The translations under genes and the position numbers were made by a program. The notes under the pieces were generated by a model. That model had not been told where the DNA came from, did not search any database, and saw only the letters and a list, made by a program, of their open reading frames with translations. From NCBI GenBank assembly GCA_949317995.1, contig OX439036.1, positions 8,412,356 to 8,476,355 of the forward strand: a stretch of DNA of 64,000 bases, in the 5' to 3' direction. Shown piece after piece: positions 1,993 to 56,339 of the stretch (its first letter is position 1; each line of letters begins with the position of its first letter). This stretch comes from Acholoe squamosa. Lineage: Eukaryota; Annelida; Polychaeta; Phyllodocida; Polynoidae.

Positions 1993-2112
1993 CTGGAATA
2001 GAGTGTAACTTTATAAATCATGCATCCTTACTGTGCCATATTTCAAGTAAGTATACCATATGACTACTCAGCAGAAAGCCTATTATTTGCATAAGCTGGA
2101 TCTGAGTGTGCT

Positions 2113-3453: not shown

Positions 3454-3487
3454 AAAGTAGTATTACATACATGAAACTTTATATTAG

Positions 3488-6869: not shown

Positions 6870-7560
6870 CCAAAAATTGGATGTTTGCACACTACATTGT
6901 ACATTTGTACCCAATTTGCAAACTATATTGCTATTTTGCACACTAGATTGTACGTTTGTACCCAATTTGCACACTAAAAATTGTATGTTTGCACACCAGA
7001 TTGTACGTTGTACCCAATTTGCACACTAAAATTGTATGTTTGCACACCAGATTGTACGTTTGTACCCAATTTGCAAACTAAATTGCTATTTTGCACGCTA
7101 GATTGTACGCTTGTACACAATTTGCACACTAAAATGTATGTTGCACATTATACTGTACGTTTGTACCCAATTCATACACTAAATAGGATTTTTGCAAAAT
7201 CAATATTTTCATGTGTAACCAAACTGAACGCAAAATTATATATTTGCGTACTAAAATTGTCAATTAGACGCAAAATTGTATATTTGCATACTAAAATTGT
7301 CAATTGAACGCAATATTGTAGATTTGCATACAAAAATTGTGAATTGAACGCAAAATTGCATATTTGCATACTAAAATTGTGAATTGAACGCGAAAACTAT
7401 ATATTTGCATACTAAAATTGTCAATTGAACGCAATTACATGCGAAATTGTAAATTTGCACACTAAAATTGTCATTTATGTTCAATTGCACGCTAAATTGA
7501 ACATTTAATGCCAAAATTGCACGCTATTTGCCAAATTGTATGTTGTACATAAAATTGGAA
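6870..7560 (+). repeat. AT-rich 3' noncoding tandem repeats, copy A
   Basis: Two adjoining sets of short diverged repeats. The first has a unit near 50 bp built around TGTACCCAATTTGCACACTA and TTGCACACCAGATTGTACG. The second, about 40 bp, is built around GAACGCAAAATTGTATATTT. The block is duplicated at 16765-17455 in copy B and lies between the antisense ORF and the polypurine tract before the next LTR, so it is part of the element's 3' untranslated region. Confidence 0.8.
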
Positions 7561-7828
7561 ATTTGTACCCAAAATTGAAGATACATAAGCAAATACACCC
7601 ATGTATGGTAAGATATAGAATTACGGAAATGTACTTATACCCAGGAGAAAATTGTATATATATACTGACAAAGCTCTACCACAAAAATTGTATTTGAAGC
7701 ACTCCCCATCACTTCAAATCCTCTTACAAACAGTATATAACTCCAAAATAAGGTAAAAATATATATATTGTACATTCCCTCGGCGAAATGACGGAGTTTC
7801 GCATTTTCTCAGGGGAGAGGGAGTATTC

Positions 7829-9177
7829 TATCATATACCATTTTATTATTCCATAAATTCTAACATATTATTATATTAATCAAAGAATATATAAGAAATA
7901 AATACATAGGTTGGTTCTAAGAGCTATAAGAGCGCTCAAACTTTGTATAAGAACTTTCATGCCCCACTGCACACCAGCCAGGTCAGTTATACATAGGTTA
8001 CAACATCAAAGGGTCCGACCTCATGGTCCACTGCACAATATAATAATTCTGAGGGTCTAATTCAGCGACCTCATGGTTCAGTGCACAAACTAATAAGTTG
8101 TAAGTGAATGCAAACGGCCGTCACGGGTGCCTGGGCACCGCAGACGCCATCATGAGTGTCTCAGCACCCAAAACACTGAACAATAGTTTACATAAGCACG
8201 ATGCCATAACATTCCGGTCGCTCTAGCGTCGCTTCTGAGCAACCTAGGTCAAATATCAAAGCATTTATGGAAAGCCCATAATTAGACGGTCAAAATGAAC
8301 CCAAGATTAAGGCAGAATTCTTATTATTAAGGAAGTTACGCTATGGAGACGGATTCGACCTCCGAATGCACTACAGACAAACCAGCGCAAGTTAAGCGCC
8401 TGGCAAGCGGGCATTAGTAACCTGGCATATTCCATTTTGCGCATGCCCAAAATGGCGGTTGTAACGGCGTAAACTTTAGAGATATGAGGGTTTGAAGTTG
8501 CAGAACCGACCAGGACAATGGGGGACACAGCGGCGTCCATGGGGGTCCTTTGTGCACCCAGTGACACATGAAAGACTCCCCTCAAACAATTGCAGAGTTA
8601 GGCAGATGCCACTGGCCCCAGTCAGTCTGAGGTGCAATGCCAAGATTTGGTACAAATAGCCTGACTGCACCTCCTAGAAGGCAGAATCTCCAGAACCGCT
8701 CCAGAAGTAACATCTCCAGTCATCTCCTGCTACCTGCTATACCACTGCACTATGGTGAAACTATGCTAGACAGGCATTGGTTTCCATCATTAGTGGCCAG
8801 AAGGTATCTTCCTCAAGACATCCACCAGAGGGTAAAGTTATTCATTATTACATTATTCCTCTAAGCAGCAGGTCAGGAGCTAGGTGTGGGAACCCACCTA
8901 GAACTATGCTGGACATTGTATTATTATTACCTCACAGGTGGAGTGGAACAGAACATTATACTTTATAAACTATTGTATATTTACTGTATACGGAAATTAC
9001 CTACATATTAACAACTGTGTGATTGATATTTCTTACATGTTGCCTAAAGCTGAATAAACCAGTGATAACTGGAAATAACACTAATTTCTATGAGCTTGAT
9101 GTATTTACTCCATACACCACTAGTCATGTGATATTTCTCATATGACAACTTGATCATGCATAATTACTAGTATGACA
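7829..9177 (+). repeat. Complete middle LTR (1349 bp)
   Basis: Preceded by the purine-rich tract AGGGGAGAGGGAG (7811-7823). It starts TATCATATACC and ends CTAGTATGACA, forming imperfect inverted termini (TATCAT/ATGACA). Three bases later comes TGGTGGAGAA, a primer-binding-site start. It serves as the 3' LTR of copy A and the 5' LTR of copy B. AATAAA-like signals are present near 9050. Short ORFs within it have no support as genes. Confidence 0.85.
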
Positions 9178-9180
9178 AAG

Positions 9181-9195
9181 TGGTGGAGAACATCC
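9181..9195 (+). promoter_or_regulatory. Primer-binding site of copy B
   Basis: TGGTGGAGAACATCC lies 3 bp after the LTR end. TGG is the complement of the tRNA CCA tail. The first ten bases, TGGTGGAGAA, are the same as those of the TRIM primer-binding site at 31006, so a tRNA ending in TTCTCCA would fit both. The match is shorter here (10 bases). Confidence 0.65.
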
Positions 9196-9324
9196 TACTA
9201 AGATCCCATTTCTCACAGGCTCATAGAAATTAAGCTGGCAACATTACTAAAAACAATCATACACACACAAAACCCCACTCCACCCACCCAGTGACCTTGA
9301 CACCATGTTCAAAAAGGTCACCAG

Positions 9325-9765
9325 TGAGATCTCCCACATACCAGTGAGATCTCCCACATACCAGTGAGATCTCCCACACATCAATGAGATCTCCAACACG
9401 ATCAGTGAGATCTCCCACATGTCAGTGAGGTCTCCCACACGTCAGTGAGGTCTCCCACACGTCAGTGAGGTCTCCCACACGTCAGTGAGGTCTCCCACAC
9501 GTCAGTGAGGTCTCCCAAACGTCAGTGAGGTCTCCCAAATGTCAGTGAGGTCTCCCACACGTCAGTGAGGTCTCCCACACGTCAGAGAGGTCTCCCACAC
9601 GTCAGAGAGGTCTCCCACACGTCAGTGAGGTCTCCCACACGTCAGAGAGGTCTCCCAAATGTCAGTGAGGTCTCCCACACGTCAGTGAGGTCTCCCACAC
9701 ATCAGAGAGGTCTCCCACACGTCAGAGAGGTCCCGTACACGTCAGTGAGGTCTCCCCACACATCA
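9325..9765 (+). repeat. 20-bp tandem leader repeat, about 22 units
   Basis: The consensus is GTCAGTGAGGTCTCCCACAC, more diverged at the LTR-proximal end (ACCAGTGAGATCTCCCACAT). It lies between primer-binding site and gag, as in the minus-strand copy at 1-372. It can be read as an ORF from 9565, but the repeat explains that. A role as an RNA packaging or dimerisation leader is possible but untested. Confidence 0.9.
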
Positions 9766-10127
9766 AGGTCTTATCAGTCAAGCTGGCAGAACAACACACA
9801 AAGACCTTACGTAGTCAGGGACCTGTTGAAGAGGTCTCCCTCCCACCTAGATCTAGGAGACCCACAGGGGGCAACACAGCCTCCAATACAACAGACCCAC
9901 ACTCAGCAGACCCCACACCACCCACCCTGTCTACTCAGGGAACAACCAGTTCTCAGGGATCCAACATTTCCCAGGGATCTCTACAGGACGCTCAACTCAC
10001 GCTATCTACCTCAGGGGAAGAAGGATCTGCCTCAGGGGGTGGATCCACACCCTCATCTAGATCTTCCACCCCAGCTCCGGCCTTTGACAGCCACTCCTCC
10101 AGAGACACTTCTCCCACACCCTCCATC

Positions 10128-11864
10128 ATGGACACCGACGAAGGCCCCCAACCTAATCAGACAGCTGAGAAGATAAGGGCCTATGAGAAGGCCATCCAAG
10201 ATGCAGTTACTGCCCTAGAGGCCAACAAGTTCCAACAGGAAGAGAGGGAGAGGATCCTCAACCAACAATTGGCAGAGAGAAATGCGGCAATAGACACCCA
10301 GCAGAAGGCCATGGAAAACCAGCAGAAGGCCATGGAAGACCAGCGGAAGTCCCTAGAGAGACAACAACAACAGATAGCAGATCTCATGAAGATGGTATCA
10401 TCCCAAACCCCACAGCCTCCCACACCAGCCACCACACCTGTTGTCACACCATCTGCCTCTGGATCCAAGGATGACATCATAATCTCCATGGTGTCCAACA
10501 TGACCAAACTCATAGACAGAAAACAACAGGACGACAGAAAGATCAGGCTACATGAGGTAACAAAACCCAAAACTTTTTCACACCCATCACCACTCATGTC
10601 AACAGCATTATTCAGTGATCACAAATTCCCAGAATATCTGAAGATTAAGTACAAAGTAACAGACAGTGACACCATGGTTACATATTTGCCCAAGTACCTT
10701 GAAGGACAAGCACTAGCTTGGTTTGAATCCTTCAGGGAGAGTGCCACACCTGATATGTTGACATGGACCAATGTAGTGTATAAATTAAAAGAGTATTATG
10801 CTACTCGAGACAATATCATCTCCAGGACTGCACTCCGTGCACAAAAGATAGATGAACCTGTCCTAGACTATGCATGCCAACTCAGGAAAGTGTGTAATGC
10901 CCAACGCCAAAGCGATGAAATCTTAAGCAAAGCATTTACCCAAGGCATGAGGCCCTGGATCTCTGTAGCTCTTGAAAACAAGAAAATAGACTCTTTTGAC
11001 CAAGCTCTAGACCTAGCCTTGGAGGTTGAGACCCAAGAACGATCTAGGAGAACATTATATGCAGAGTCTAACCCACAGCCTACTAAGAAAAAGGTCCAGG
11101 AAATCAGCACTAGTGCAGATGAAGATGTTAACCTAATGTCTAGTGCCCATGTAAGGCAACAGGAAGCAAAGGTTACATCAAAAGACCCTACCGGTAGATA
11201 TAGAGGAAACTATGACCCCAACTACCAATCCAATAGAGGTAGAGGTAGGGGGGGCAACAGCAACAACCGGGGGGGTCACAACAGTAGAAAAGACAACAGC
11301 TCTTCCAACTCCAACAATGGTAACTCTTCATACAGTGATAGGAGAGACAGAACCCCAAGTAATGGCAGATCCTATAATAATCAGGGATCCAACAGTAGGA
11401 GCCATAGTCCACATAGGAACTACAACTCTGGATCCTACAACAACAATGGTTCCTACAACAGCAGCCAGGGTTCAAACAACTCTGGATCCTATAATAATCA
11501 AGGATCCAACAGTAGGAGCCACAGTCCACATAGGAACTACAACAGTGGATCCTACAACAACAATGGTTCCTACAACAACCAGGGTTCCAACAACTCTGGA
11601 TCCTATAGTCAAGGATCCAACGGTAGAAGCCAAAGTCCACATAGGAACTACAACAGTGGATCCTACAACAACAACGGTGCCTACAACAATCAGGGATCCA
11701 ACAACTCCGGATCCTACAGCAACTCTGGTCATTATAACCAGGGTTCCAACCCACATCAGGAGGATCACAAACCTAACACAAGAGGTTACCAGGGGAACCA
11801 ACACAGTAACCCCCAAACAATACCTCAAGTGATGGATCAACTCTGCAAGCTCCTTGGGAATTAG
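10128..11864 (+). CDS. Gag-like structural protein (578 aa)
   Basis: This would be the capsid-type polyprotein of copy B. The start ATG at 10128 begins MDTDEGPQPN. Residues about 15-85 form a Gln/Glu-rich coiled coil. Residues about 150-310 resemble the retrotransposon Gag capsid domain, with segments YLPKYLEGQALAWFESFRES and a helical stretch ending in LALEVETQERS. Residues 355-400 are RG-rich (NRGRGRGG). Residues 400-550 are imperfect repeats of SYNNNGSYNNQGSN and SRSHSPHRNYNSG. No CCHC zinc knuckle is present; Arg/Gly boxes may take over RNA binding, as in foamy-virus Gag. The ORF is intact. About 255 bp downstream the env-like gene starts; there is no protease or polymerase between. Confidence 0.8.
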   Translation: MDTDEGPQPNQTAEKIRAYEKAIQDAVTALEANKFQQEERERILNQQLAERNAAIDTQQKAMENQQKAMEDQRKSLERQQQQIADLMKMVSSQTPQPPTPATTPVVTPSASGSKDDIIISMVSNMTKLIDRKQQDDRKIRLHEVTKPKTFSHPSPLMSTALFSDHKFPEYLKIKYKVTDSDTMVTYLPKYLEGQALAWFESFRESATPDMLTWTNVVYKLKEYYATRDNIISRTALRAQKIDEPVLDYACQLRKVCNAQRQSDEILSKAFTQGMRPWISVALENKKIDSFDQALDLALEVETQERSRRTLYAESNPQPTKKKVQEISTSADEDVNLMSSAHVRQQEAKVTSKDPTGRYRGNYDPNYQSNRGRGRGGNSNNRGGHNSRKDNSSSNSNNGNSSYSDRRDRTPSNGRSYNNQGSNSRSHSPHRNYNSGSYNNNGSYNSSQGSNNSGSYNNQGSNSRSHSPHRNYNSGSYNNNGSYNNQGSNNSGSYSQGSNGRSQSPHRNYNSGSYNNNGAYNNQGSNNSGSYSNSGHYNQGSNPHQEDHKPNTRGYQGNQHSNPQTIPQVMDQLCKLLGN

Positions 11865-12119: not shown

Positions 12120-15100
12120 ATGGGGAGACTGAGAGTTGCACCCATACTGCTAACTATGCTGTTATTATATATTATAGAACCACTTACTGCAGGTTATACA
12201 CCTGTGGTGAGACAAAACATAGGAGTAGTATTCAAACCTAGCCCTCAACCATTGGTCAATGGACATACAACCACAACACTGTTGTTAGCTATCCCCTACA
12301 AGATACCTCGGGCACCCGTTACCCAAGGATCCATAAGGGATAGAATACTCCAATTGACCACTCCTACTCTACAAGATCATACCTCTGGTCAAATTATCCA
12401 ACAAGCCAAGGAGCTTGACACCTTGCTGGAAATTGCAGACAAGGAGATAAATGAAACATTAGCCTCCATCAAATTGTTCTTATCCAACCCCATAAACACA
12501 TTGGACAAGGCCAAAAGAGAGGCCATACTGGGTTTTCTAGCACCCCTGTTTCGCGGTGTGCTAGGTCTAGCCACAGTAGAAGATGTAAACCAAGTAATGG
12601 GGGCCGATGATATACGAACGAGCTCCTCGTGTATAGAGGGACACTGTATACACGAGGCAATGAATGTCACAGGACAACCCCCATGAGGGGAGGTCACGGG
12701 ACCGCACAAGGAAGAGGAGGTCACAGGACAAACATACAGGGTTGGTTACAGGACAAGACGAGGGAGGGGAGGACACAGGACAAGACGAGGAATTGGAAGG
12801 TCACAGGACCACCTGATGAGGGTAGGTCACAGGACACCCCTTACTGGAGGGAGCTCTAGGGAGTTCACAGGACAGGATGAGGAAGGGTAGGTTCCAGGAC
12901 ATCCCCAGGGTAGGTCACAGGACACCCCTATTGGAGGGAGGTCAGAGGACAGGACGAGTAAGGGGAGGTCACTGTGTTGTCCTGTGACATCCATTTCATC
13001 AACTTGTCCTGTAACCTGCCCTACTTGTGTTGTCCTGTGACGTCCATTTCATCAACTTGTCCTGTAACCTCCTCTACTCATGTTGTCCTGTAACCAACCC
13101 TGTATGTTTTGTCCCGTAACCTCCCCTCCTGATGTTGTCCTGTAACGTCCATTTCCTCGTGTGAGCAGTGACACTCCATGCACGAGGAGCTCGTTCGTAT
13201 ATCGCTGGGCAGTAATGGGACAGCTCAAGAACATAGATGAAATACTAAGAAAATTTGCTAAACAAGATCAGGAAGCAGCTAGTCTCATTGAAAAGATCAC
13301 AGACAGACAAGATAAGTTTGTTAAAGCATACATCCAAGATAAGAAGGTACTGGACAGCACAATCAACACCATAGGTGACACCGTCAACCAATGGGCCTCT
13401 AACATGTCCAGGTCATTTGACTCATATTCAAGGCACGAGAAAACTCAAAGGGAAAAAATGCAAGTATTAAATGATGCATTGATCATCATAGCAGCAAGAA
13501 TGAATACAGTTCAATCACTGCAAAGAACAAATGCAGCCCTGAGGATGCTATCATCAGGAATCCTGACCCCTGATATAGTACCACCCTCAGACCTTGCTAG
13601 ATACTTAATTGACATTAATAACAAACTTAGGATCACACACCCTGGAGCACAAGTCGCAATTAATGACTTAGATTTCTATTATTCACAGAAGCTGACCTCA
13701 TACACTTACTCAGCTCACCATATATATATTCATCTGGACATTATAATTCAATCTACCACCTCGACCTTCAAACTGTACCAAATGATTACATCACCCATGC
13801 CTATAGACACACAGGAGACCCCCACCAGAGGAGTCACCAAATTGCAAACCACAACTGAGTTTCTAGCAGTATCTTACGACGAATCATTATTGATCGAGTT
13901 GGACAGATATGCAGGCATGTGAAGGTACTACAGTAAAGGTATGCAGAGATGTAAATGGTAGAATTTATAAACACAGGCCTACATGCCCTGTAGCCATTTT
14001 TACTAACCAGGCTCAATAGATTAAGGAACATTGCAAGTTTACAGTTTCACCACTGCAAGCACCTACCACCCATGCTATTTCCATTTCTGAAGATGAGTAT
14101 CTGGTCACTACTAATGAACCCCATTACTTTATCAACTGCCATGGTAAAACGTCTGAAACCCGAAAAGCCCAATCCTACTCAATCATAGGTGTACCCTGTG
14201 GGTGCACAATCAGTGTAGGAGAATTTTCTCTTCCAAACACAAGGTTGCCCTGTAACTCAACCTTATCATTTCATTACATTCTCAAGACTATTAATTTACC
14301 ATTCATGGCAGCACTTAACCAAATTTCTGAAACCAAACCAGATGAAAGAGAGAACCTTCCAAATTTCCCAGTAGTAAACCTTTCTAGAACCTTAGAGAAA
14401 CTACAGGAAAATCCAATAATGGATGATATTACTCAACTAAATCTAGAGCCCTTTGCCAAAACATTATTAAAAGATGCCTCCAACCTTGATAAGGAAATGG
14501 AATCACGTTACGTAGAATCACACCTACGTCGAGTTACAGAGCATCCAATCTTCCAAAGCTTAGGACTCATTCTAGGGATATCAGCTCACATTTTTATAGT
14601 ATACATACTACTCAAACTGTACAGACTAGGAGGGACTGTAGCCTACCTGCCTACAGCCAAAGCATTTAGACTAGTCACCGAGCTTCCCCTACACAAATTG
14701 CTCCCAGATAAGAATCCTACCAAATTAAACCCTACAGAGGAAACCCACACCCCTTTCCTCACAATTCAGGAAACCCACACCCTGATAATTGCTTTATTAT
14801 TCACCCTGACCATCTACTCAGCCTACAGAATAATGAAGTACCTTAATAAATTTGCACAGACACACTGTGGCAAGAAAAATGTGGCCAAGCGCACAAATCC
14901 CACAATATATTTTAAAATATATTGTGGAGACTCAAACTTCGCGCTACCCTTGAGGCCAATACCACATGAATTTGATGAGATTAAATCAGCAGCTGCCCCG
15001 ACCTATAAGGATATAGTGGTTAAAACCTTCCCACTACCTAAGGCTATATTTACCTGGAATGGACCAGCAGTTATAACAACACAGAGAGGAGAATTTGCTT

Positions 15101-15357
15101 ATCACCTCCCTCAGGTGATACACCTACCTTGGCGCACTAGGTTCAGTACCATACCAGCCCTTAAAAACAAAGGACTGTACTACTCTATCCTTCTCCAGAA
15201 TGATTGTGGCACCAGCCCGGTGACCATGACAGCACTGGAAAATACAACAGATATAATTATTGACGAACAACAGGAGGAGACCGCAAGGTCAAACATGCAG
15301 ACTATTGCTAATTTCCTAAACCACCAGCCCTCCCCGGTGACTGTGGAAACAGCCTAG
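12120..15357 (+). pseudogene. Env-like glycoprotein gene, broken
   Basis: The start ATG at 12120 sits in CACCATGG and begins a clear signal peptide (hydrophobic run at residues 7-20). A basic site followed by a hydrophobic stretch near 12505-12570 resembles the cleavage/fusion region of errantivirus and baculovirus-F-type Env proteins. Membrane segments lie at about 14560-14625 and 14785-14830, the second inside a long tail. Breaks are: a MITE at 12602-13210 with its 9-bp duplication (618 bp in total, a multiple of three), a frameshift near 13915, an in-frame TAG near 14026, and a TAG at 15355-15357 that is TTG in copy A. The gene cannot be expressed intact here. The class is inferred from architecture. 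Confidence 0.65.
12602..13210 (+). mobile_element. Mutator-like MITE inserted in env (609 bp)
   Basis: It is flanked by the 9-bp direct repeat AGTAATGGG (12593-12601 and 13211-13219). The ends form long inverted repeats sharing GATATACGAACGAGCTCCTC and similarity for about 80 bp. The interior is filled with short repeats of GGTCACAGGACA-type sequence, in one orientation on the left half and the other on the right. Nine-bp target duplications with long terminal inverted repeats are typical of Mutator-like elements. No transposase is encoded. Inverted-repeat ORFs inside are not genes. Confidence 0.8.
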
Positions 15358-15510
15358 ACTGCCCACAGCCTAGACTGCCCCCAGTCCACCACCAGGAGAC
15401 AACATATCAGAGACAGTATTCAGAACTTTTCGGACAATTTGCCGGCCCTGAAAAGGGCCTTTGGGATGGCGGTTTTTTTTTTACACCCTAGGTTTCAGTC
15501 AGTCGGGTTT

Positions 15511-16131
15511 TTACCACCGAGCCTCGGGTTCAACACTGACGGGAGAGTAGGAGTCCGATCCATACATGTGGCTGTGGTCACAATCCCACTCAATAAGTCG
15601 GGCCTCCATCGATCCCAGTCCGTACTCAGCTGCCATAGATGGGTCCCCGGACGCCGCAAGATCAATGAAGGAGACTACCATCAAATAGACCCACAACACT
15701 CGCTCACGCGGCCCGAAGTTAGAATCCATGGGCCAGAACCCTATATTAGTCAAGGCCCTGGCCAAAAGGGCCACAGTGGCCCCCCGACGTAAGACTGAAC
15801 CCAAAAAGTAGTGGCAGGAGTACATGTCAACCAGCACATCACCATGCTCACAGATCTCTCTGTAATTTTTCACTATATAGCCATAGTGTAGGGTCTGGTT
15901 GGCCTCCACCAGGGCCCTAGCCGGACTCCCCACCACCATCACCTGGGAGACAGGCAATTCAAGGATAGCTTGAAAGTGAGCCATGATGTTGCAGCAAAGG
16001 TTTCCAGTGAGGAACTGATACTCCAATACCAGCCACTCCCTCCTTAAATGGACACACACCCCCCCCCCACCCTGAACTGTCCACTGACACCAAGCTAGGC
16101 ACTGCCACAGACACATGCCAGAATCTGGCAC
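15511..16131 (-). CDS. Antisense ORF in the element's 3' region, copy B (206 aa)
   Basis: Counterpart of 5623-6240, open over 206 codons, minus strand, starting MPDSGMCLWQ. Differences from copy A are few: one extra residue from a 3-bp net insertion (CA plus C) and a handful of substitutions such as D/V in a LWDYLMVV stretch. No homologue is recognised. The position, antisense and downstream of env just before the repeat block and 3' LTR, is like that of antisense genes of some complex retroviruses and plant LTR elements, but that is analogy only. A minus-strand transcript would have to start within about 16150-17700 or in the 3' LTR. Confidence 0.4.
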   Translation of the reverse strand: MPDSGMCLWQCLAWCQWTVQGGGGVCVHLRREWLVLEYQFLTGNLCCNIMAHFQAILELPVSQVMVVGSPARALVEANQTLHYGYIVKNYREICEHGDVLVDMYSCHYFLGSVLRRGATVALLARALTNIGFWPMDSNFGPRERVLWVYLMVVSFIDLAASGDPSMAAEYGLGSMEARLIEWDCDHSHMYGSDSYSPVSVEPEARW

Positions 16132-16764
16132 CTAACACCTCAAGTGCCACCACTGCATGAGCACATCAGGGAGGAGATTCACATCTCATTCCTGACAGAC
16201 CTCCACTGTCAATGAAATTATCAAAGTATTGAAAAGAAAAATTGATTTAGAAAAAATATACACAGCCACTTGTTGATGTATAATATGAAAATCTATGGTA
16301 TTCTCACAAAATCGATGATTAATGCGCGCATATACGCGCAAATTGCAAATTGCAAATTGTAAATTGTACAAATCTAACATTAATATACATGAATGCAGGT
16401 AGATAACTAAGACAGTTCTTGTACCCACTAGCACTTGTATACTATACCAAGGTTTACTTAAGGTAACACACTTTAGGTATCCAAGAAAATTGTTGGAAAA
16501 ATGAATGAAAAAAAAAAAAAAATGTTGAGAAAAATTGTTGACATGAAAAATGTTTACTTAAGATACTCACCAAATAAATCTTTTTCAGGGACACATACTC
16601 AAAAAGCCTAGGGAAAAGTCAATTAAAAGCAGCGGCCCACTGCCGAAATTGCCAATTAATACACCCATATAGCAAGATAACAGAGTAACTCAGAGACAAA
16701 CGAGCCTATTGTACATGAAGTACCTTGTTTTTCCGGTCCTTGGAAAAATTTGTCTCAAATCCCA

Positions 16765-17455
16765 AAAATTGTATGTTTGCACACTAGATTGTACATTTGT
16801 ACCCAATTTGCAAACTAAATTGCTATTTTGCACACTAGATTGTACGTTTGTACCCAATTTGCACACTAAAAATTGTATGTTTGCACACCAGATTGTACGT
16901 TGTACCCAATTTGCACACTTAAATTGTATGTTTGCACACCAGATTGTACGTTTGTACCCAATTTGCAAACTAAATTGCTATTTTGCACACTAGATCATAC
17001 GCTTGTACACAATTTGCACACTAAAATGTATGTTGCACATTATACTGTACTTTGTACCCAATTCATACACTAAATCGGATTTTTGCAAAATCAATATTTT
17101 CATGTGTAACCAAACTGAATGCAAAATTATATATTTGCGTACTAAAATTGTCAATTAGACGCAAAATTGTATATTTGCATACTAAAATTGTCAATTGAAC
17201 GCAATATTGTAGATTTGCATACAAAAATTGTGAATTGAACGCAAAATTGCATATTTGCATACTAAAATTGTGAATTGAACGCGAAAACTATATATTTGCA
17301 TACTAAAATTGTCAATTGAATGCAATTACACGCGAAATTGTAAATTTGCACACTAAAATTGTCATTTATGTTCAATTGCACGCTAAATTGAACATTTAAT
17401 GCCAAAATTGCACGCTATTTGCCAAATTGTATGTTGTACATAAAATTGGAAATTT
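16765..17455 (+). repeat. AT-rich 3' noncoding tandem repeats, copy B
   Basis: Near-identical duplicate of 6870-7560, with the same ~50-bp and ~40-bp diverged units. It is followed at 17700-17719 by the purine tract GGGGGAGAGGGAG that precedes the third LTR. Confidence 0.8.
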
Positions 17456-17719
17456 GTACCCAAAATTGAAGATACATAAGCAAATACACCCATGTATGGT
17501 AAGATATAGAATTACGGAAATGTACTTATACCCAGGAGAAAATTGTATATATATACTGACAAAGCTCTACCACAAAAATTGTATTTGAAGCACTCCCCAT
17601 CACTTCAAATCCTCTTACAAACAGTATATAACTCCAAAATTAGGTAAAAATATATATATTGTACATTCCCTCGGCGAAATGACGGAGTTTCGCATTTTCT
17701 CGGGGGAGAGGGAGTATTC

Positions 17720-18860
17720 TATCATATACCATTTTATTATTCCGTAAATTCTAACATATTATTGTATTAATCAAAGAATATATAAGAAATTAATACATAG
17801 GTTGGTTCTAAGAGCTATAAGAGCGCTCAAACTTTGTATAAGAGAGTTCATGCCCCACTGCACACCAGCCAGGTCAGTTATACATAGGTTACAACATCAA
17901 AGGGTCCGACCTCATGGTCCACTACACAATATAATAATTCTGAGGGTCTAATTCAGCGACCTCATGGTTCAGTGCACAAACTAATAAGTTGTAAGTGAAT
18001 GCAAACGGCCGTCACGGGTGCCTGGGCACCGCAGACGCCATCATGAGTGTCTCAGCACCCAAAACACTGAACAATAGTTTACATAAGCACGACGCCATAA
18101 CCTTCCGGTCGCTCTAGCGTCGCTTCTGAGCAACCTAGGTCAAATATCAAAGCATTTATGGAAAGCCCATAATTAGACGGTCAAAATGAACCCAAGATTA
18201 AGGCGGAACTCTTATTATTAAGGAAGTTACGCTATGGAGACGGATTCGACCTCCGAATGCACTACAGACGAACCAGCACAAGTTACTCGCCTGGCAAGCG
18301 GGCATTAGTAAGCTGGCATATTCAATTTTGCGCATGCCAAAAATGGCGGTTGTAACGGCGTAAACTTCAGAGATATGAGGGTTTGAAGTTGCAGAACCGA
18401 CCAGGACAATGGGGGACACAGCGGCGTCCATGGGGGTCCTTTGTGCACCCAGTGACACATGAAAGACTCCCCTCAAACAATTGCAGAGTTAGGCAGATGC
18501 CACTGGCCCCAGTCAGTCTGAGGTGCAATGCCAAGATTTGGTACAAATAGCCTGACTGCACCTCCTAGAAGGCAGAATCTCCAGAACCGCTCCAGAAGTA
18601 ACATCTCCAGTCATCTCCTGCTACCTGCTATACCACTGCACTATGGTGAAACTATGCTAGACAGGCTTTGGTTTCCATCATTAGTGGCCAGAAGGTATCT
18701 TCCTCAAGACATCCAGCAGAGGGTAAAGTTATTCATTATTACATTATTCCTCTAAGCAGCAGGTCAGGAGCTAGGTGTGGGAACCCACCTAGAACTATGC
18801 TGGACATTGTATTATTATTACCTCACAGGTGGAGTGGAACAGAACATTATACTTTATAAA
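17720..18860 (+). repeat. 3' LTR of copy B, left part
   Basis: Begins TATCATATACC and matches the middle LTR to ACTTTATAAA at 18860, where the LINE begins. The rest of the LTR resumes at 24116. The two parts add up to 1351 bp against 1349 bp for the middle LTR. Confidence 0.85.
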
Positions 18861-26150: not shown

Positions 26151-28413
26151 ATGGGGTTTGTTCTCTACACTGTGAATGTCCTTCTTTGGGCATCCTTATC
26201 ATGGGCTGGTATGTGTGTACTTGCATTATGAATAGTTTTAGCACCAGACAATATTTTGATCAACTATCTTTCGTTGATTATACTTACTCTGCCTGGCTGT
26301 CAATGCTATAAATTGTTTCACTCTGGATTATATTTCATGTTGTATTTTATGGCATCTGGGAGAGGAATAATGGGACTTTTGGGAGGCGGTTATTCACATA
26401 TTCTGCCACAGGTTATGTCTTTAAGCTTTGTAGGTTGTAGGTAATAGCTAATCATTTAAAAGCCTCATCTCATCAGGGGTTGAACTCATGATGTTAGGGT
26501 TTCCACTCCTTCACTTTGACCACTCAGCCAATGGGAAAGGCTTGGTTACAACAGACTAAAACATATACATAAATGATGAACCAAGATTAACTAACATCCA
26601 CATCAGAAACATGCATATAATGGTTTTCAAAACACACTGCATTATCATTTTTCATATGGAACATACCAAAAACGTATGGATGTATCTTATCCACAGGGTG
26701 CCTTAAATGTGGGGCACAATGGTATTTTCATCACTTGACTATTGATCCCACAGATATATGCTCTCATCTTAATGGATACACAGTTCATGGGACATCCTGC
26801 TTCAAGGTGTACACCATTTATAAGACCTGGTTTGATGCTGAGGCATCCTGTGTCGCAGATGGAGGTCATCTAGCCAGTATCCATACCAGTGAGGAACAAG
26901 ATTTCATAGCTAACCTTTTGTTAGTATTGTTATTTCACTAGATTTTATGAAAAAGGATTGTATGTGTTCATTTTTCCTAGATGCATGAAAAAACAAAACA
27001 AAAAAAACAACAACATTAAAGCATTGGTTCCACAGGTATAAATCGGTCGGATTAGCACTAATCCGACCGATTTTTTTCTATACTTTTGATATATTATAAA
27101 TCGTCGGATTAGGGCTGTGGAACCAACGCTTAAGACAAACTTCACATAACTTACATTGATACAAATAAAGAAAATGCAGGTGCTCATGGGGTGTATCATG
27201 ATATGGTATACATACTAACTTTGAGATGTAAGCAGACCACACAACATAGTATGCAAAGATTTCCGATCAATATCATTTGTTTGAAATACCACATAAATCC
27301 TTCCTGACTTGTTACAAGGGGGCCTCGTTATGGACCTTGGATAGGACTCAGAGGTACCCTTCATAATATGACCTGGTCAGATGGCACAGATGTGAACTAT
27401 GAGAACTGGTATGAAACAAACCCCGATGGGAATGGTGTTAGCTGTGTTAAAATGATGGCCTCTAGTGGACACACATGGAAAAACAAACAATGCTCTGCCC
27501 CCCACACCTACCTGTGTCGCATTGGTATGTTAATAGTTTTTGAGATATCTAAATCTATGTATCTGTATATGTGTAAAAAGGGGTATTCAGCCAAATAGAT
27601 ATATAGAATGGTTAGTTTCATCATTTTCCCAGTCCTAAGATAGATACATCATTAGGACCATACTTGACGGTGATATTTCCAACATGACCCTTGTCTTAGT
27701 TGAAGCACACCTTAGCATATATATAAATGCATATATAGGTACCATAAATCATGCTTATCTGAAAAGTGCATAATGACCTAGGTACCGTAGAGTTTTATTT
27801 TCTGGGTGGTGTAGTACAGTAATACTCACACAGAGATTTTCCTAGTTGATAAGTAAGGATTAATATGGCTCTTTAGACATTGTGGATTTCCTATTTCTGA
27901 ACCTAAAGACTTCACTGTACATCAAATGTTTACTAACTCTTCCTCAGAACAATCTCTAAATGAGGTCTACTTTAGGAAGGTACAAGGAGGTATGGACACA
28001 GATGCAGTTGTTAGCCCCTCCTCTACACACAGAGTCAGGTCCAGGATGGAGTGTGCTTGGAGGTAGGGAATTATTGCCTAAAGACAAATATAAATACAAA
28101 CCTAGGAAGTAAAATATATGTTCTCAGAGCTAATTCAGTAATTCTTATGTACAAATGTACAAAACCTATTGGTTGATTACTGAAAAAGATTATTTGTTAG
28201 CTCCAGTTCTACCCAGTGACATTTCTAATGTGCAATTTCATATTCCTGTATCTTTCCCCCCTTCCACTAAGATGCCTACAGGTCAATGGATGTAAGCACC
28301 TTATCATGACTGAAGATGGAGGGAAATACTTGTGTGAGACCTACACCACTCTGTATCGTGCCTCAACCCCTGCTTCTCCACCCACTGAGAACTACCAGAG
28401 AACATATCCATGA
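26151..28413 (+). CDS. CTL-A: secreted CTLD-PAN lectin-like protein (228 aa, 5 exons)
   Basis: The exons are 26151-26208, 26754-26919, 27319-27524, 27948-28062 and 28272-28413. All introns are GT-AG, all phases agree, and the total is 687 bp ending TGA. Residues 1-19 are a signal peptide (MGFVLYTVNVLLWASLSWA). Residues 21-143 are a C-type lectin domain with VHGTSCFK, CVADGGHLASIH, WIGL, WSDGTDVNYENW and CSAPHTYLC. Residues 144-177 are a Ser/Thr linker. Residues 178-222 have a PAN/apple-like pattern (ECAWRC, CKHLIM, CETY). The usual EPN/QPD and WND calcium-sugar motifs are not evident, so sugar binding is uncertain. Exons are inferred by comparison with CTL-B and CTL-D. It is likely a secreted defence or adhesion protein of an expanded family. 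Confidence 0.8.
27021..27129 (+). mobile_element. Small foldback MITE in CTL-A intron 3
   Basis: 109 bp with inverted ends GCATTGGTTCCACAG and CTGTGGAACCAACGC, bordered by TTAA on the right and TTAA plus one base on the left. It contains an inner hairpin, AATCGGTCGGATTAG against CTAATCCGACCGATT. TTAA targets are typical of piggyBac-type elements, but the family is not certain. Confidence 0.65.
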
Positions 28414-29830: not shown

Positions 29831-30755
29831 TTGTTAATTCATAAAACACTGCCGCCTTTTAGGCTTGCTTTAAGCACCACGAACACTTGACACAACACCA
29901 CAAGCACTTGACATGTCAGGCTGCCAAGTGCAAACATAAAGACATTTTAGTTATTTTTTGCCATTAGTTTACCCATTCATTTATGTGTATACACACTACT
30001 GATTACACACTGGTAAGTGGTAGTATTGTTGCAGACAAAATCAAATTTTTGAATATACCACATGATGAAGGCTTATGTAGGACTGTGGGAAGCTACTTCA
30101 GAAGGTTTGCAAATATTTTTGATGTCTAGATAAGGGGACAGACATTTCTGGCAAGTTAATCTTGGTGAGAGTTATAATTTTCACTCTATGCTATTTCAGG
30201 ATTACCATCCAGAACTTGATTGATCCCAGTACTCTTATTTACAAAATACCTTATTTGATTCTTGTTATCTTATTCACCACTGAGAATAAGATAATCCCCA
30301 GTACTAAATGATGACCAGTTCCTGTGAATATTTGTAAATCTATCAGTTAAGGTCATTGTCCTTGCCACCTAAGTGTGACCAGTTGACGACTCTAACAAAG
30401 TGCTATTTAGAATTCATCAATCAAATAGTATTTAACCTAACTTCAGAGAGGGTGATAACCTTGCATAATTATAAGGTCCTTTTGGCCTAAGACATAAAGA
30501 CTATTAGTTTTGTGCATACAGTTCTAGAGAAACTGTGATTGGTTGCCAAGGGAGGCAGTAAGACTTAATTGATTGATTAATACACCCATATGTACATCAC
30601 TGAGCCATACATCGATCCTACCTATAGTATCAGCTACATGTTTGTTCGTCTACAGAGACTTTGATTAGCTAATTAGTAAATTTCTGGTACTAAATGATGA
30701 CCAGTTCCTGTGAATATTTGTAAATATATCAGTTAAGGACATTGTCCTTGCCACC

Positions 30756-31004
30756 TGTAGGGGCCAGCTCTGGCCGTAAGTCCATGGCGGTAGGCCATCT
30801 GCCCCGTTCCGGTTGCACCAGCCCTCAGGGGCTGGTCAGCTGGTATAAGCTGTCCCCCTTGTGTATTATACCGATCCAGATGTAGGTGGAAGGTAGAGAA
30901 TGTCAGACGGGGAAGTAGCTCAGCGGTAGAGCTTCCGCCTGCAGGTTGGAGGGTCCCGGGTTCGATTCCCGGTTTCTCCAAGACGTTTTCCGCCGACCTC
31001 TACA
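30756..31004 (+). repeat. TRIM 5' LTR
   Basis: 249 bp, TGTAG...CTACA. It holds the tRNA-like gene at 30909-30980 and a TTTT pol III stop at 30986-30989. The next base is C and then the primer-binding site. Confidence 0.9.
30909..30980 (+). tRNA. tRNA-Cys-like gene (anticodon GCA) in the TRIM 5' LTR
   Basis: 72 nt with full cloverleaf. The acceptor GGGGAAG pairs with TTTCTCC (G-T pairs allowed), followed by discriminator A. The D stem is GCTC/GAGC. The anticodon loop CTGCAGG gives GCA after T33, and its stem has one mismatch at the loop end. The T arm CCGGG/CCCGG is perfect around TTCGATT. The A box TAGCTCAGCGG and B box GGTTCGATTCC are intact, and a TTTT terminator follows after AGACG. CCA is not encoded. 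It may be a working pol III gene or a tRNA-derived remnant; the identity call rests on the anticodon only. Confidence 0.75.
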
Positions 31005-31005
31005 C

Positions 31006-31019
31006 TGGTGGAGAAACCG
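31006..31019 (+). promoter_or_regulatory. TRIM primer-binding site matching its own tRNA
   Basis: TGGTGGAGAAACCG is the exact complement of the last 11 nt of the LTR-encoded tRNA plus an added CCA tail: 14 consecutive bases. The following base differs (A for G). Confidence 0.9.
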
Positions 31020-31211
31020 AGTTGGTCCTGACCCGTGTGAGGGGGGACTACGAGAACTCGGTACCTGGGCTGGTATGACACGAATGACGATTCAATTTGC
31101 TAGTACTGGGGAGACTTGGAAACAGGTGGCGGGTATGCGACTCAGTACTAGTCCCGGGTATCTGGTACCTATAGGGTACTGAACCCTATATTGAATCTGG
31201 TAGGGAGGAGT

Positions 31212-31345
31212 GTAGGGGCCAGCTCTGCCGTAAGGCCAGCAGCCCCGTTTCTGGAGATCCCAGCCCCCAGGGGCTGGCATCCGGTGGTAGCTCCCCCCTA
31301 CGTGTGTGTCATACCAATCCAGGTGTAGGTGCCTGGAACGTTATA
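31212..31345 (+). repeat. Diverged LTR 5' fragment inside the TRIM
   Basis: Starts TGTAGGGGCCAGCTCTGCCG and follows the LTR for about 130 bp with gaps, up to the part before the tRNA gene, which is missing. It is preceded by its own purine tract GGTAGGGAGGAG, like the real second LTR. It may be a relic of an older element fused into this one. Confidence 0.7.
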
Positions 31346-31496
31346 ATACAGATACGCTTCGACCCTGGCAGTACTGTGTACTGGTAGGTCAACTGGGAAG
31401 TCAGGAGTGCCTCACACTGCTTGATAAAGCCCAATCGATCTGGTTGGGAGGAATGCTTGGTGCTGGTTGGCCATGGTTGAAGCTGGTTGGGAGGAG

Positions 31497-31745
31497 TGTA
31501 GGGGCCAGCTCTGGCTGTAAGTCCATGGCGGTAGGCCATCTGCCCCGTTCCGGTTACACCAGCCCTCAGGGGCTGGTCAGCTGGTATAAGCTGTCCCCCT
31601 TGTGTATTATACCGATCCAGATGTAGGTGGAAGGTAGAGAATGTCAGACGGGGAAGTAGCTCAGCGGTAGAGCTTCCGCCTGCAGGTTGGAGGGTCCCGG
31701 GTTCGATTCCCGGTTTCTCCAAGACGTTTTCCGCCAACCTCTACA
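31497..31745 (+). repeat. TRIM 3' LTR
   Basis: 249 bp, preceded by GGTTGGGAGGAG. It carries the second tRNA-like copy and ends CTCTACA followed by the target duplication CCACC. Confidence 0.9.
31650..31721 (+). tRNA. tRNA-Cys-like gene (anticodon GCA) in the TRIM 3' LTR
   Basis: Identical over 72 nt to the copy at 30909-30980, with the same AGACG-TTTT trailer. The differences between the two LTRs all lie outside the tRNA. Confidence 0.75.
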
Positions 31746-32085
31746 CCACCTTAGTGTGACCAGTAGACAACTCTAACAAAGCGCTCTTATAATATTTCGC
31801 CTGAGCTCAGGGGGAGACTATTTCCTTGCAGAATTATAAGGTCCTCTTGGCCTACGACATAATGGCTATTGGTTTTGTGCATACAGCTCTAGAGAAACTG
31901 TGAATGGTTGCCAAGGGAGGCAGTCAGACTTAATAGATCCATTAATGCACCAATATGTATATAATTGAGCCATACATAATCCCTGCCTTTAGCATCAGGT
32001 ACATGCTTGTTCATCTATAGAGACTTTGATTAGCTGCCTAAGGAGGTAGCCAGACTTTTGTAAATCATTAAACTGTGTAACTGAG

Positions 32086-45158: not shown

Positions 45159-45338
45159 GTTTTTTGGTAGCGTTTGGGACAGTCGGGTCACCCCTTCTCT
45201 CTTGAATTCTACCATCTAGCAAACCCCTTGTGCGCCCTCAGAGTCTGTCTCTCAGCAGGCAGACTCCGCTTGTGTCGGCCCCGGCGCCGTAAAAGCCGGA
45301 AAAAGGAGTAGTTTACTCCCGTGGGCGATTCCCCAGTC

Positions 45339-48287
45339 ATGGCTGAGGAATCCATAGCTGCAGCCAAGCTATCCGGTGACCCGGATAAGCTGACTCCGTC
45401 CGCAGAAGCTTTTCCGGAAGCTTTGTCGCCTGTTACACAGGAAGAGAGCGAGATGATGGACGTGGAGGAACCCACGGATCGCTCGTTCGAGGAGAAGCTG
45501 GCTTCATTCTCACTAAATGAGCCAGAGAAACTATTATCTCCACTCCCGGCCGAGGGATCCGGAGCGACTGCGAGTGCTGAACCCGCAGCGACAGAGTCCG
45601 AAACTACCCAAGTTGACGGACAGAAGGATGAGTGGAAGCCAGCAGTGGCGGAGCCTTTTCCAGCTAGCTATGATGGTCGCTACCTGTATGTCCACCCGGA
45701 ACTGCAGGCACAAGTGACCTACGCGGACGGGACACCAGTCAGGATGGACCCGAAAGTCAGGATAGCTATCGAGGGCGTCATGGCTCCCGAACAGCTGACC
45801 AGGACGCCTCCCGAGTGGCTTCGAGACTGGCCGTGGTTCCAACGGGGACTTATGGTGGACGCTGGTTTCCGTGAAACCGTGTACGCAGCTAACCGAGCCT
45901 TCGAGCTCGGAGCGTATCCGAAGCCTGACAAGTCCCTGTGGAACGTCAAGGCTACGAACATCAACTGGGTAGGCTGTGTCTGGGATACCGATGGCCAGAC
46001 CTACCCACGCCCTAGTGCTATCCGGACACCGTGCCGGACCACTAAGGAATTCCGGGAGGCCGCTGCTAACTTCGAGCAGTGGGATGACGGTTACTACATA
46101 ACCGAACAGGAATTGGTGGATGTCCAGAACAATTCACTAATCGGATTGGACCGAGCTGCAGCCCTTCGGACGGTTATTGTCCGCCGTATGACTGCCGAAC
46201 AGGAGGCACAGGAAGAGGCTAAGAGGGCCGCGGAAGCACCCGCACCTCCTATCCCCGACCTGAAGCTTGCCACCAGAAGCTCCGCCAGTGCTACATCAGC
46301 TACCGGCAGCACTACTACCCCAGTAGAAGCCACGACCTCCAGCACATCCGGAACCCAGGAACCGGAGGAAGACTGGAAGGTCAGTAAGAACCGACGATCC
46401 GCTGCTCGGAAGCTCAAGAATCTCCCGGATTCTGCGAGAGCCGAGCCGAAACCCAGCACCTCAACCACTGGTAGTACTGCCATGGAGGTTGAGTCGTCTG
46501 ACGAGGAGTCGGTGCACGAATCCTCGGTTGAGTATGATGAGAAGGCCACTCCATCAACTCAAACCGAGGCCGAACGTTGGGCTAACGCCAAATCCGGATT
46601 CAAAACCCGGATCCCGACGTGTTTCTCCAACTGTGCGTACGGAGTTAAGAAGGACGGCTCTACCCTCTATGCCTGTCCAGACTCAATCAATAAGAACGAT
46701 GAGTCGGATGATGAAGATTGGATGCGTCTTTCGGACGAGGACCCCAATCCGAGCAAAGCCTATCGAAAGATGTGGCTTATGCTAAACCACACCGAAGGGT
46801 ATTACACTTATACCCAGAGGAGGAAGCTGCGTTGGGCTTTAGAGAAGTGGTACGGCGACGATCAAAAGTCTTGTCCCTTCTCTATCTGCCAGGATGCGAG
46901 TGATGTCTCGATCCAGACCTGGAGTACTCCAGCCCGGTTCCAAAGGCATCTGGTAGAGGCCCACTTCCACCATCACCCGGTTTACATTTGTGATCCGAGT
47001 TATGGTAAGAAGGGCAAGAAGTGTACTACGAAGGTGCAATACAACCGACGTAGTGATCTGGCTAGACACCAGAAGAAATGCCACGCAGAAGGTTTGGACG
47101 GGGCACGGAAGCGCATCATGGAGCTTCATCAGGAACTCATGAAGGAGTTCGACAGCCTGAGCGAGGATGCTTGGTCTAAGATCCGACCAGGGGACCAAGT
47201 CCTCTGCGAAGTTCCGAAGACCAAGGATTCGAAACTCCGAGCAAAGATAGTCCTGACTCCTGGAAAGGGTAAACTGGACATGCACGAGTCTCTCTGGCAG
47301 AAATGCGAGGAATCCGGAAAGGATGCAAAGAGAGCTCGTGAAAGGAGCAGGAGAGACCAGAACCGTGGCGGCAACGGTAATGGTCAGAGCACGACGAAAT
47401 CGAAAGTCAGAGCAGAGGACCGTTCCAGGTCCCCTCTGTCAAGGCACCCCGCAGAACAGGCTCAGGGCACTCCGGTGTTCAAGAAGCCCGAACCTGCCGG
47501 ATACGCTGGAGCCGTATCTAAACCTGGGAAAGTGAGTTCTCGAAACTTTCCGTCCTTAAACCAGGGACCTGGACCTGAGAGCCAGACCTTGGTGGTAGGA
47601 AAGGATGGTCGCCTTATGCCAAAGAAGACCACCGCATCTGCTGCCGCCGGATCTGCATCCGCTCCAGCCGCCCCACCAGTTACCTTTACCCAGGAGCAGT
47701 TAAACATGTACCTGCAAATGGGACTGAAACAGAATGTACCACCTGCCTTCTGTGTACCAACGACAGGTGTGTCCGGAAGTCCTAAACCCGGAAGTGGTCC
47801 ACAGGCCGCCTCGACTCCTCCCAAGGCTGTCGCGGCACCTGAGAAACCAAAGGACGCTATTACCATTAAAACCGGTAATGCGGAAGTTTGGTTCGAGAAG
47901 TCTCGCCAAGGGGAGGCAGATGTCCAGAAGGCCATCTACACCCATTGGGAGAAGAGCGTTCGTGAGAAAGCGATCGAGTTTCATCAGGGTCTCCTAAACG
48001 AAACTCTGTTGTGTATGAAACAGGTGGGCGACGCTGAAAAGCAACGTCTCGAGACTCTCATCCGGGACGATGTGAAGGCCCAGGAGGAGGCTGCCGCAGC
48101 TGCCCAAGAAAAGGCAGCTATGGATGTACACGTGTTGGAAAAACGTGTAAAGGAGGAGATCACTCGGAACACCAATCTGAACACTAAGTTCATGAGGGTG
48201 TTCGGAGTCGACTTGGACGAGTGGGACGGCACTCCCGAGTCGGCTTTAGCTCTTCTGAAGAAGAAGCATGCTAAGAAATCCGTTTAA
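45339..48287 (+). CDS. Extra Gypsy ORF: zinc-finger-like, coiled-coil protein (982 aa)
   Basis: The ATG at 45339 (MAEESIAAAK) is taken as start. Residues 1-100 are acidic. Residues about 105-290 are an unrecognised globular part (YDGRYLYVHPELQAQVTY, WPWFQRGLMVDAGFRET). Then comes a Ser/Thr-rich linker. Residues about 505-585 contain two C2H2-like fingers with unusual spacing: CPFSIC...RFQRHLVEAH, and YIC...KKC...RSDLARHQKKCH. Next is a basic region (KRARERSRRDQNRGG). The C-terminal 150 residues form an Ala/Glu/Lys coiled coil. No retroviral env features, signal peptide or membrane span. Codons are more GC-rich than in pol. Same strand as pol, 510 bp after it. A DNA- or RNA-binding accessory role is likely; the exact function is unknown. 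Confidence 0.7.
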   Translation: MAEESIAAAKLSGDPDKLTPSAEAFPEALSPVTQEESEMMDVEEPTDRSFEEKLASFSLNEPEKLLSPLPAEGSGATASAEPAATESETTQVDGQKDEWKPAVAEPFPASYDGRYLYVHPELQAQVTYADGTPVRMDPKVRIAIEGVMAPEQLTRTPPEWLRDWPWFQRGLMVDAGFRETVYAANRAFELGAYPKPDKSLWNVKATNINWVGCVWDTDGQTYPRPSAIRTPCRTTKEFREAAANFEQWDDGYYITEQELVDVQNNSLIGLDRAAALRTVIVRRMTAEQEAQEEAKRAAEAPAPPIPDLKLATRSSASATSATGSTTTPVEATTSSTSGTQEPEEDWKVSKNRRSAARKLKNLPDSARAEPKPSTSTTGSTAMEVESSDEESVHESSVEYDEKATPSTQTEAERWANAKSGFKTRIPTCFSNCAYGVKKDGSTLYACPDSINKNDESDDEDWMRLSDEDPNPSKAYRKMWLMLNHTEGYYTYTQRRKLRWALEKWYGDDQKSCPFSICQDASDVSIQTWSTPARFQRHLVEAHFHHHPVYICDPSYGKKGKKCTTKVQYNRRSDLARHQKKCHAEGLDGARKRIMELHQELMKEFDSLSEDAWSKIRPGDQVLCEVPKTKDSKLRAKIVLTPGKGKLDMHESLWQKCEESGKDAKRARERSRRDQNRGGNGNGQSTTKSKVRAEDRSRSPLSRHPAEQAQGTPVFKKPEPAGYAGAVSKPGKVSSRNFPSLNQGPGPESQTLVVGKDGRLMPKKTTASAAAGSASAPAAPPVTFTQEQLNMYLQMGLKQNVPPAFCVPTTGVSGSPKPGSGPQAASTPPKAVAAPEKPKDAITIKTGNAEVWFEKSRQGEADVQKAIYTHWEKSVREKAIEFHQGLLNETLLCMKQVGDAEKQRLETLIRDDVKAQEEAAAAAQEKAAMDVHVLEKRVKEEITRNTNLNTKFMRVFGVDLDEWDGTPESALALLKKKHAKKSV

Positions 48288-54770: not shown

Positions 54771-55624
54771 CAGTATTTGACATACCTCACTTTCGCTAGC
54801 TGGTACAGAAATACTTAACATATTTAACTTTCCCTCATATATGGGCCCTATGCACCAACACTTGTAGTTTATGTATGCAAAATTAATAGATGCTACTGCT
54901 GACTTTTTTTGGGACCCCCTTGCCAACCTTTTTGACAATGATCTGTGACTATTTTGCAAATCTGAACTGACTCTTTGGTTATTCCACATAAGACATAAAA
55001 CTGGTAAATGTTATATCTAGCTGTATCCTAAATATTAAAGCTGTAAGAGGAAGGGGTAATAAAACTGAACCAATGAAGCTAAGTCCTATGTCAATCAATT
55101 ACTTACTGCCACAACAATGTGACAAAGTTATTTGAAATGAAAAAACATACAGGGTCTGGGGGCTGATCTCACCACTGCTTCTGGCCTGTCTGTCTTAGCT
55201 GCTGGGGTGCATCTGAAAGTCACCACCCTGGCCCCCTGGGGTATAGGTCCCCTCCCAGTTCTGGAAGGAGTCCCTCCCAGGGTGGGTCCTGAGACCAGTC
55301 CCCAAAGTAGTGGTAACCTCTCTGGATTGGCTCAGACCACATTACAATTCAACATGACCATCAATTGAACATCTCACTCCAGTCTGACCATTCTCGCCAG
55401 CCCCCCCCCCCAACCTTGTGATGCTAAAAATTTTGAGTAGGGAAGATGGTGAGGGAGAGTCTACCACCAGGCACACAAACAAGGCAATCAATCAACCCAT
55501 TTTGTGAGTACAATTATAACAATATGAAATACAATATAATACATATGTTTCATGGTTATGTTACAAATCTATTGGTGCATTCCAGTTACCCCTCCCTACT
55601 TCCAAGAACAATCAATCATAGACC

Positions 55625-56339
55625 TGTCTGTGTGTGTAGAGGAGGGGCTAACAGCTGGGTCTGTGTCCATACCACCTGGTACCTTCATGAACCACTACTA
55701 CTACCTACCTCCAAGCACACTCCATCCTGGACCTGACTGTGTGTGTAGAGGAGGGGCTAACAGCTGGGTCTGTGTGCATACCACCTGGTACCTTCATGAA
55801 CCACTAGTATAACCTACCTCCAAGCACACTCCACCCTGAACCTGACTGTGTTTGTGTAGAGGAGGGGCTAACAGCTGGATCTGTGTCCATACCACCTAGT
55901 ACCTTCATGAACCACTACTACTACCTACCTCCAAGCACACTCCACCCTGGACCTAACTGTGTGTATAGAGAAGGGGCTAACAGCTGGGTCTGTGTCCATA
56001 CCACCTGGTACCTTCATGAACCAGTACTATTACCTACCTCCAAACACACTCCACCCTTCACCTAACTGTGTGTGTAGAGGAGGGGCTAACAGCTGGGCCT
56101 GTGTTCATACCACCTAGTACCTTCATGAACCACTACTACTACCTACCTCCAAGCACACTCCACCCTGGACCTGACTGTGTGTGTAGAGGAGGGGCTAACA
56201 GCTGGGTCTGTGTCCATACCACCTGGTACCTTCATGAACCACTACTGCTACCTACCTCCAAGCACACTTCACCCTGGACCTGACTGTGGGTGTAGACCAG
56301 GGGCTAATAGCGGTGTCTGTCTCCATACCACCTTCAACT
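55625..56339 (-). repeat. Minisatellite, about 7 units, linker-exon type, inverted
   Basis: Same unit as 2113-3453, here on the minus strand, i.e. again in the sense orientation of the local lectin gene (CTL-D). The rightmost unit (56256-56358) can be read as a 103-bp linker exon with phases that fit, though its acceptor (GATGAG) is weak. Plus-strand ORFs across the array are antisense artefacts. Confidence 0.85.

Follow-up and report, generated by a model that had tools for sequence, protein, structure and literature searches.

A family of short LTR retrotransposons in the genome of the annelid Acholoe squamosa, non-autonomous and of the Helenus type, is best explained, with a good degree of probability on the sequences at hand, as supplying its own primer for reverse transcription. 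In retroviruses and most LTR retrotransposons this primer is a cellular tRNA borrowed from the host (PMC10886601). Here the LTRs themselves carry a tRNA gene, and it appears reasonably likely that the family encodes the primer, with the tRNA gene and the primer-binding site (PBS) co-evolving in more than 1000 copies and at least three primer 'alleles' in circulation (base 67 = T, G or A). The idea of a TRIM that provides its own primer tRNA had been put forward in an earlier note on this DNA, and it is now supported by genome-wide co-variation between the LTR tRNA and the PBS.

The copy in the window, by which we mean the whole 64-kb stretch of DNA that was analysed, is confirmed as an intact TRIM of 990 bp at 30756-31745, with 249-bp LTRs, TG..CA ends, a TSD and one tRNA gene per LTR (Table 1). 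Its two LTRs differ at 3 positions in a repeat comparison, and a single reading frame of at least 130 amino acids overlaps the element (143 aa, antisense, in the ORF list). Paired LTRs, a PBS, a polypurine tract (PPT) and a short TSD place it outside the definition of a SINE. The PPT-like tract and the truncated LTR head within its internal region (31201-31331) are also present in many other family-A copies.

Table 1. Features of the window TRIM and of its target site, in window coordinates; A and B boxes are assigned by consensus.
Feature	Position	Strand	Description and basis
Adjoining tandem unit	30301..30407	.	Empty target site GCCACCTAAGTGTGACC; repeat families D3 and D6
TSD, 5' side	30751..30755	.	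CCACC; sequence and TSD tally
5' LTR	30756..31004	+	249 bp, TGTAG...CTACA; direct repeat with 31497-31745
tRNA gene, 5' LTR	30909..30980	+	72 nt, anticodon GCA, acceptor GGGGAAG/TTTCTCC, A73; ARAGORN; Rfam RF00005, 53.5 bits
A box (presumed)	30916..30926	+	TAGCTCAGCGG; sequence
B box (presumed)	30959..30969	+	GGTTCGATTCC; sequence
TTTT, candidate pol III terminator	30986..30989	+	5 nt past the tRNA; sequence
PBS	31006..31019	+	TGGTGGAGAAACCG; 14/14 complementary to LTR tRNA 3' end plus CCA; co-variation
Internal region	31020..31210	+	PPT-like tract TAGGGAGGAG at its end (31201-31210)
Divergent truncated LTR-like segment, in internal region	31211..31331	+	71% to LTR 1-133
Polypurine tract, 5' of 3' LTR	31489..31496	+	GGGAGGAG; sequence
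3' LTR	31497..31745	+	249 bp; direct repeat of 5' LTR
tRNA gene, 3' LTR	31650..31721	+	Sequence identical to 5' copy; ARAGORN, Rfam
TTTT after 3' LTR tRNA	31727..31730	+	Sequence
TSD, 3' side	31746..31750	.	CCACC; sequence and TSD tally

Elsewhere in the window, the segment 37337-52954 is a long Gypsy element whose 381-bp LTRs are 99.7% identical and which is flanked by the 4-bp repeat CGTG. Its frames include Pfam matches to reverse transcriptase, RNase H, integrase, protease and zinc knuckle, together with a 991-aa frame (45312-48287) that has no Pfam match, and its PBS, TGGTGCCGTGACC, differs from that of the TRIM. Two long arrays of a unit of ~110 bases (2104-3465 and 55592-56333) are related in sequence, one being inverted relative to the other, and a shorter piece akin to them lies at 27976-28067. 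The segments 3827-8969 and 14643-18860 are 97-99% identical, and sequences related to them occur in inverted orientation at 1-1812 and 7826-9688; between the two segments (9669-11864) lies a gag-like frame resembling the Ty3 capsid below the cut-off.

A full tRNA-like gene had been claimed for both LTRs of the window TRIM, and ARAGORN and Rfam indeed call one at both places. The accompanying claim of a cloverleaf needs correcting: when the type-A tRNA is folded as a single sequence, the structure of lowest energy is something other than a cloverleaf, although both tRNA models accept the sequence. The anticodon in the window is that of Cys (GCA), and the G3:U70 pair and A73 of this tRNA are identity elements that we take to be alanine-like; the LTR tRNA of subfamily type B reads as tRNA-Ala(TGC), and anticodons GCA, CGA and CAA all occur among copies sharing the type-A acceptor end. 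Since the anticodons vary while the acceptor end is either fixed or changes with the PBS, translation is an unlikely purpose for these tRNAs. Nearly all LTR copies read contain the tRNA (in L009 the 3' copy ends before it), and a T4 stretch lies 4-8 nt past the tRNA in 99 of the 100 relatives listed, compared with 211 of 5000 shuffles. These features bear on a different reading, quite improbable in our view, in which the element uses its LTR tRNA as a pol III promoter (TRIMp3; Helenus has been proposed, and Cassandra reported, to do so, PMC10886601), while the match of the tRNA to the PBS arises as a by-product or serves to form a hairpin in cis within the RNA. The A and B boxes are present as a promoter would have them, but pol III would be expected to terminate at the TTTT that comes right after the tRNA. 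A pol III transcript of the whole element is accordingly unlikely, as is the role of second promoter for the element that the earlier note had envisaged for pol III, and the tRNA has the appearance of a product in its own right.

The PBS was said to follow directly on the LTR and to match its tRNA over 14 bases; the complementarity is borne out, extending for exactly 14 bases before it stops, although one base (C, 31005) separates the LTR from the PBS. The first 11 bases of the complement of tRNA plus CCA have no second match anywhere in the 64-kb window. In the copies read, the usual PBS consists of a 14-nt match followed by AG where the tRNA would give GG, which argues that bases 15-18 were not recopied from the LTR tRNA in most of them. 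All 11 encoded bases match in 66 of 100 listed places, and part of the mismatches look like CpG decay. A hairpin of 11 bp between LTR and PBS is possible, in keeping with the cis-hairpin form of the promoter reading; such a hairpin has no need, however, of the PBS TGG that pairs with the non-encoded CCA, a motif which the search pattern described below itself required.

The genome searched comprises 1.48 Gb in 63 contigs, some of them longer than 100 Mb. A query with the LTR returned 2,570 candidates; scoring covered 40 of these, and among the 41 matches listed 40 were 99-100% identical and one was a partial match at 81%; the tRNA-end pattern GGTTCGANTCCCGGTTTCTCCA, allowing at most 2 mismatches, found 6,061 genome matches (reversed control, 1). 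An open pattern, in which a tRNA end ...CTCCA is followed within 15-40 nt by TGGTGGAG......A, leaving six tRNA and six PBS bases free and demanding the TGG of the PBS, fits 1,406 places genome-wide, and its reversed control none. LTR, PBS-junction and tRNA-end patterns each gave 0 matches in viral contigs. The copies form several subfamilies that differ in LTR heads and spacings: the best tRNA-family hits (30 fetched of 63 scored) belong to type B, with the tRNA end CGGTGTCTCCA and the PBS TGGTGGAGACACCG, and the two type-C elements read have tRNA ends CAATATCTCCA and CGGTATCTCCA and the PBS TGGTGGAGATACC. Among 30 distinct full elements at the fetched loci, 20 are flanked by a 4-bp TSD and 8 show no TSD in the range of 3-7 bp; the TSD of the window copy is 5 bp long and that of one element 6 bp.

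Co-variation of LTR tRNA and PBS, proposed earlier as a check, was followed genome-wide, and tRNA base 67 and its PBS partner were found to change together. In the 100 places listed (the first of the 1,406, all on contig C1, with related copies that are not independent of one another) the two bases are paired in 97, as T/A in 77, G/C in 18 and A/T in 2, the unpaired three being G/T, A/C and T/G. No permutation in 100,000 reached 97 (the highest gave 79), and when each distinct combination is counted once 45 of 48 are paired. Genome-wide, G67 accompanies a PBS C at 204 of the 224 places with a base 67 other than T, and 12 places combine T67 with a PBS base that is not A, at least one of which (the L101 place) is an inverted-LTR junction. 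From the sequences, the acceptor pair 6:67 is A-T in type A, T.G in type B and T-A in type C; position 6 is occupied by A in type A but by T in the other two types, so that pairing is kept throughout. It would be possible to ascribe the match to chance complementarity, or to shared descent without function, and the copies are indeed related, so that conserved matches alone count little; yet the joint changes at base 67 involve three states (0/100,000 permutations), occurred more than once on a tree and are joined by a tracking of base 59 in 9 of 10 copies (both below), and the genome-wide off-diagonal counts of base 67 against the PBS also disfavour such an origin, which we regard as extremely improbable.

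A tree of 36 rows, built from LTR heads and internal sequence, requires at least three gains or losses of the T/A type on supported branches, and the joint change of base 67 and PBS thus happened more than once. On the same tree the labels can be accounted for by a total of 4 changes, compared with 14.4 after shuffling, a contrast inflated by near-copies in a tree where support is weak for 21 of the 33 inner branches, the bootstrap is unsettled, and L046 (a 3' LTR flank with no PBS) and L016 (with a damaged PBS) are included. Single mismatched elements are L046, L059, L078 and L088; in L078 (positions 649-719, complement) a type-B LTR is joined with a type-A PBS, which suggests recombination between subfamilies. 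The tRNA and the PBS lie ~25 nt apart, a spacing at which recombination or template switching could move both as one block.

Reverse transcription of a tRNA is normally stopped by m1A58, and if the LTR tRNA acts as primer some PBSs should therefore have been recopied up to base 59. A 17-base complement pattern fits 47 places genome-wide (reversed control, 1), of which 27 were read. Ten of these are copies with a PBS of ~18 nt, which complements this type of tRNA for about 17-21 bases and then gives way to other sequence. In 9 of the 10, base 18 of the PBS is complementary to base 59 in the copy's own LTR tRNA (G-C 5, C-G 3, A-T 1), a score reached by 137 of 100,000 permutations; the sorting behind this count, including base 59 of L113 and L117, was done by eye, an unsorted script count that takes in inverted junctions gives 15 of 20, and the remaining 17 of the 27 places (15 antisense-tRNA junctions and the rearranged L109 and L118) were set aside. 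Sequence beyond the PBS is shared by L099 and L100 and by L117 and L120, so that neither pair is independent. In L099, L113 and L117 the copy's own tRNA now carries a mutated base within the paired stretch, and in L115 (= L073), of type B, the PBS complement ends at exactly 18.

The 15 places set aside as junctions continue as antisense tRNA for ~50 nt or more. Junctions of this kind, composed of LTR, TGG and antisense tRNA, were considered as cDNA of the primer tRNA and rejected, as the two that were read further enter antisense LTR past the tRNA 5' end; the other 13 are presumably inverted-LTR junctions as well, and in two of them, L098 and L103, the tRNA itself appears to be rearranged. An LTR joined at the PBS to antisense tRNA is found at 26 places (14 partly read, L096 and L107 among them); the two read further form palindromes. 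Inverted-LTR palindromes may arise by fold-back priming at the complementarity between PBS and tRNA, and the 26 places are a point in favour of the promoter and hairpin reading.

The main rival to a primer supplied by the family is that priming is done by a host tRNA, most likely one of the tRNA-Ala isoacceptors, whose 3' end is the same, the LTR copy being derived from it and serving as a promoter or relic only. We consider this unlikely, and it has several points to its credit: the type-B LTR tRNA reads as tRNA-Ala(TGC); the acceptor features G3:U70 and A73 look alanine-like; a tRNA-Ala(AGC) pattern fits 125 places, 79 of 100 listed lying in one tandem array (C12:51.45-51.48 Mb); and the AG at PBS bases 15-16, a misfit to the LTR tRNA, hints at another ancestral primer. 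A host primer would, however, need host tRNAs that vary at base 67 in step with the three variants of the LTR, and that vary at base 59 in addition. Moreover, the 30 RF00005 hits fetched (the best 30 of 63 scored, from 97,417 candidates) all lie, by their flanks, in LTR copies, and one candidate host Ala end (GGCATCTCCA after TTAGCATGC) has one genome match, in a sequence that is not tRNA-like. The array fitting the tRNA-Ala(AGC) pattern (G000:C12:51451300-51480597) is dense and tandem, with a spacing of about 290/390 bases.

Under the preferred reading, in which the family provides the primer, pol III would transcribe the LTR tRNA gene from its A and B boxes and stop at the downstream TTTT, and the transcript would be trimmed and receive its CCA as any tRNA does. 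The mature tRNA would anneal to the PBS one base past the 5' LTR, a step to which both complementarity and co-variation point, and, on the genomic RNA made by pol II, would prime synthesis of the minus strand, putatively inside the particles of a Gypsy element. Mobilisation by Gypsy elements is suggested by the 4-bp TSDs together with what PMC10886601 states about animal Helenus. The primer would probably be supplied at the level of the family, many LTR copies contributing in trans to one pool of tRNA.

The window element is filed as Helenus-like by its anatomy rather than by sequence kinship with the named Helenus families. Helenus elements are TRIMs with a tRNA in the LTR and have been described in animals (Kojima 2024, PMC10886601); common to them and to the present element are two LTRs, an internal tRNA-like gene with boxes A and B, a PBS, a PPT and a length of ~1 kb, and in both groups the tRNA isotype and the anticodon often disagree. 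Animal Helenus have TSDs of 4 bp, and their mobility is presumed to depend on Gypsy elements (PMC10886601); the TSDs of the window family are likewise mostly of 4 bp. The two part ways at the PBS, which in Helenus was assigned to cellular tRNAs (PMC10886601) and here matches the LTR tRNA over 14 bases (rarely ~18) and co-varies with it. PMC10886601 raises self-priming and rejects it, reporting no complementarity between LTR tRNA and PBS, a reported property that stands outside its definition of Helenus and to which the window family would be an exception. With animal Helenus already described, the earlier suggestion that an animal TRIM with a self-supplied tRNA primer is undescribed must be narrowed: TRIMs with an LTR tRNA are known in animals, and only the match of that tRNA to the PBS is new. 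A search of titles and abstract openings in the open-access literature, covering few subscription journals and no bioRxiv, yielded besides PMC10886601 no report of a tRNA-bearing TRIM or of an LTR-borne primer tRNA.

Other systems share parts of this arrangement. Cassandra, a plant TRIM, also has a small-RNA gene in its LTR, which is a 5S rRNA there and a tRNA here, and its transcription starts and ends in the 5S (PMC10886601), whereas in the window element TTTT follows directly after the tRNA. No 5S rRNA was found in the window LTRs, the Rfam scan of the window giving two tRNAs only. The biv-TRIM of bivalves is an animal TRIM too, for which PMC6934838 identified no canonical PBS, and Tf1 is named in that paper as a self-priming LTR element. 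Like the window family as proposed here, Tf1 is independent of a host tRNA primer. Self-priming of the Tf1 type uses the element's own RNA, not the product of a tRNA gene.

Many apparent tRNA genes of the host genome, where 6,061 near-matches to one tRNA end were found, are probably parts of transposons. If the primer is self-encoded, its supply becomes a trait under the parasite's control, and primer switching, primer specificity and the expansion of tRNA genes by mobile elements would become testable in one genome.
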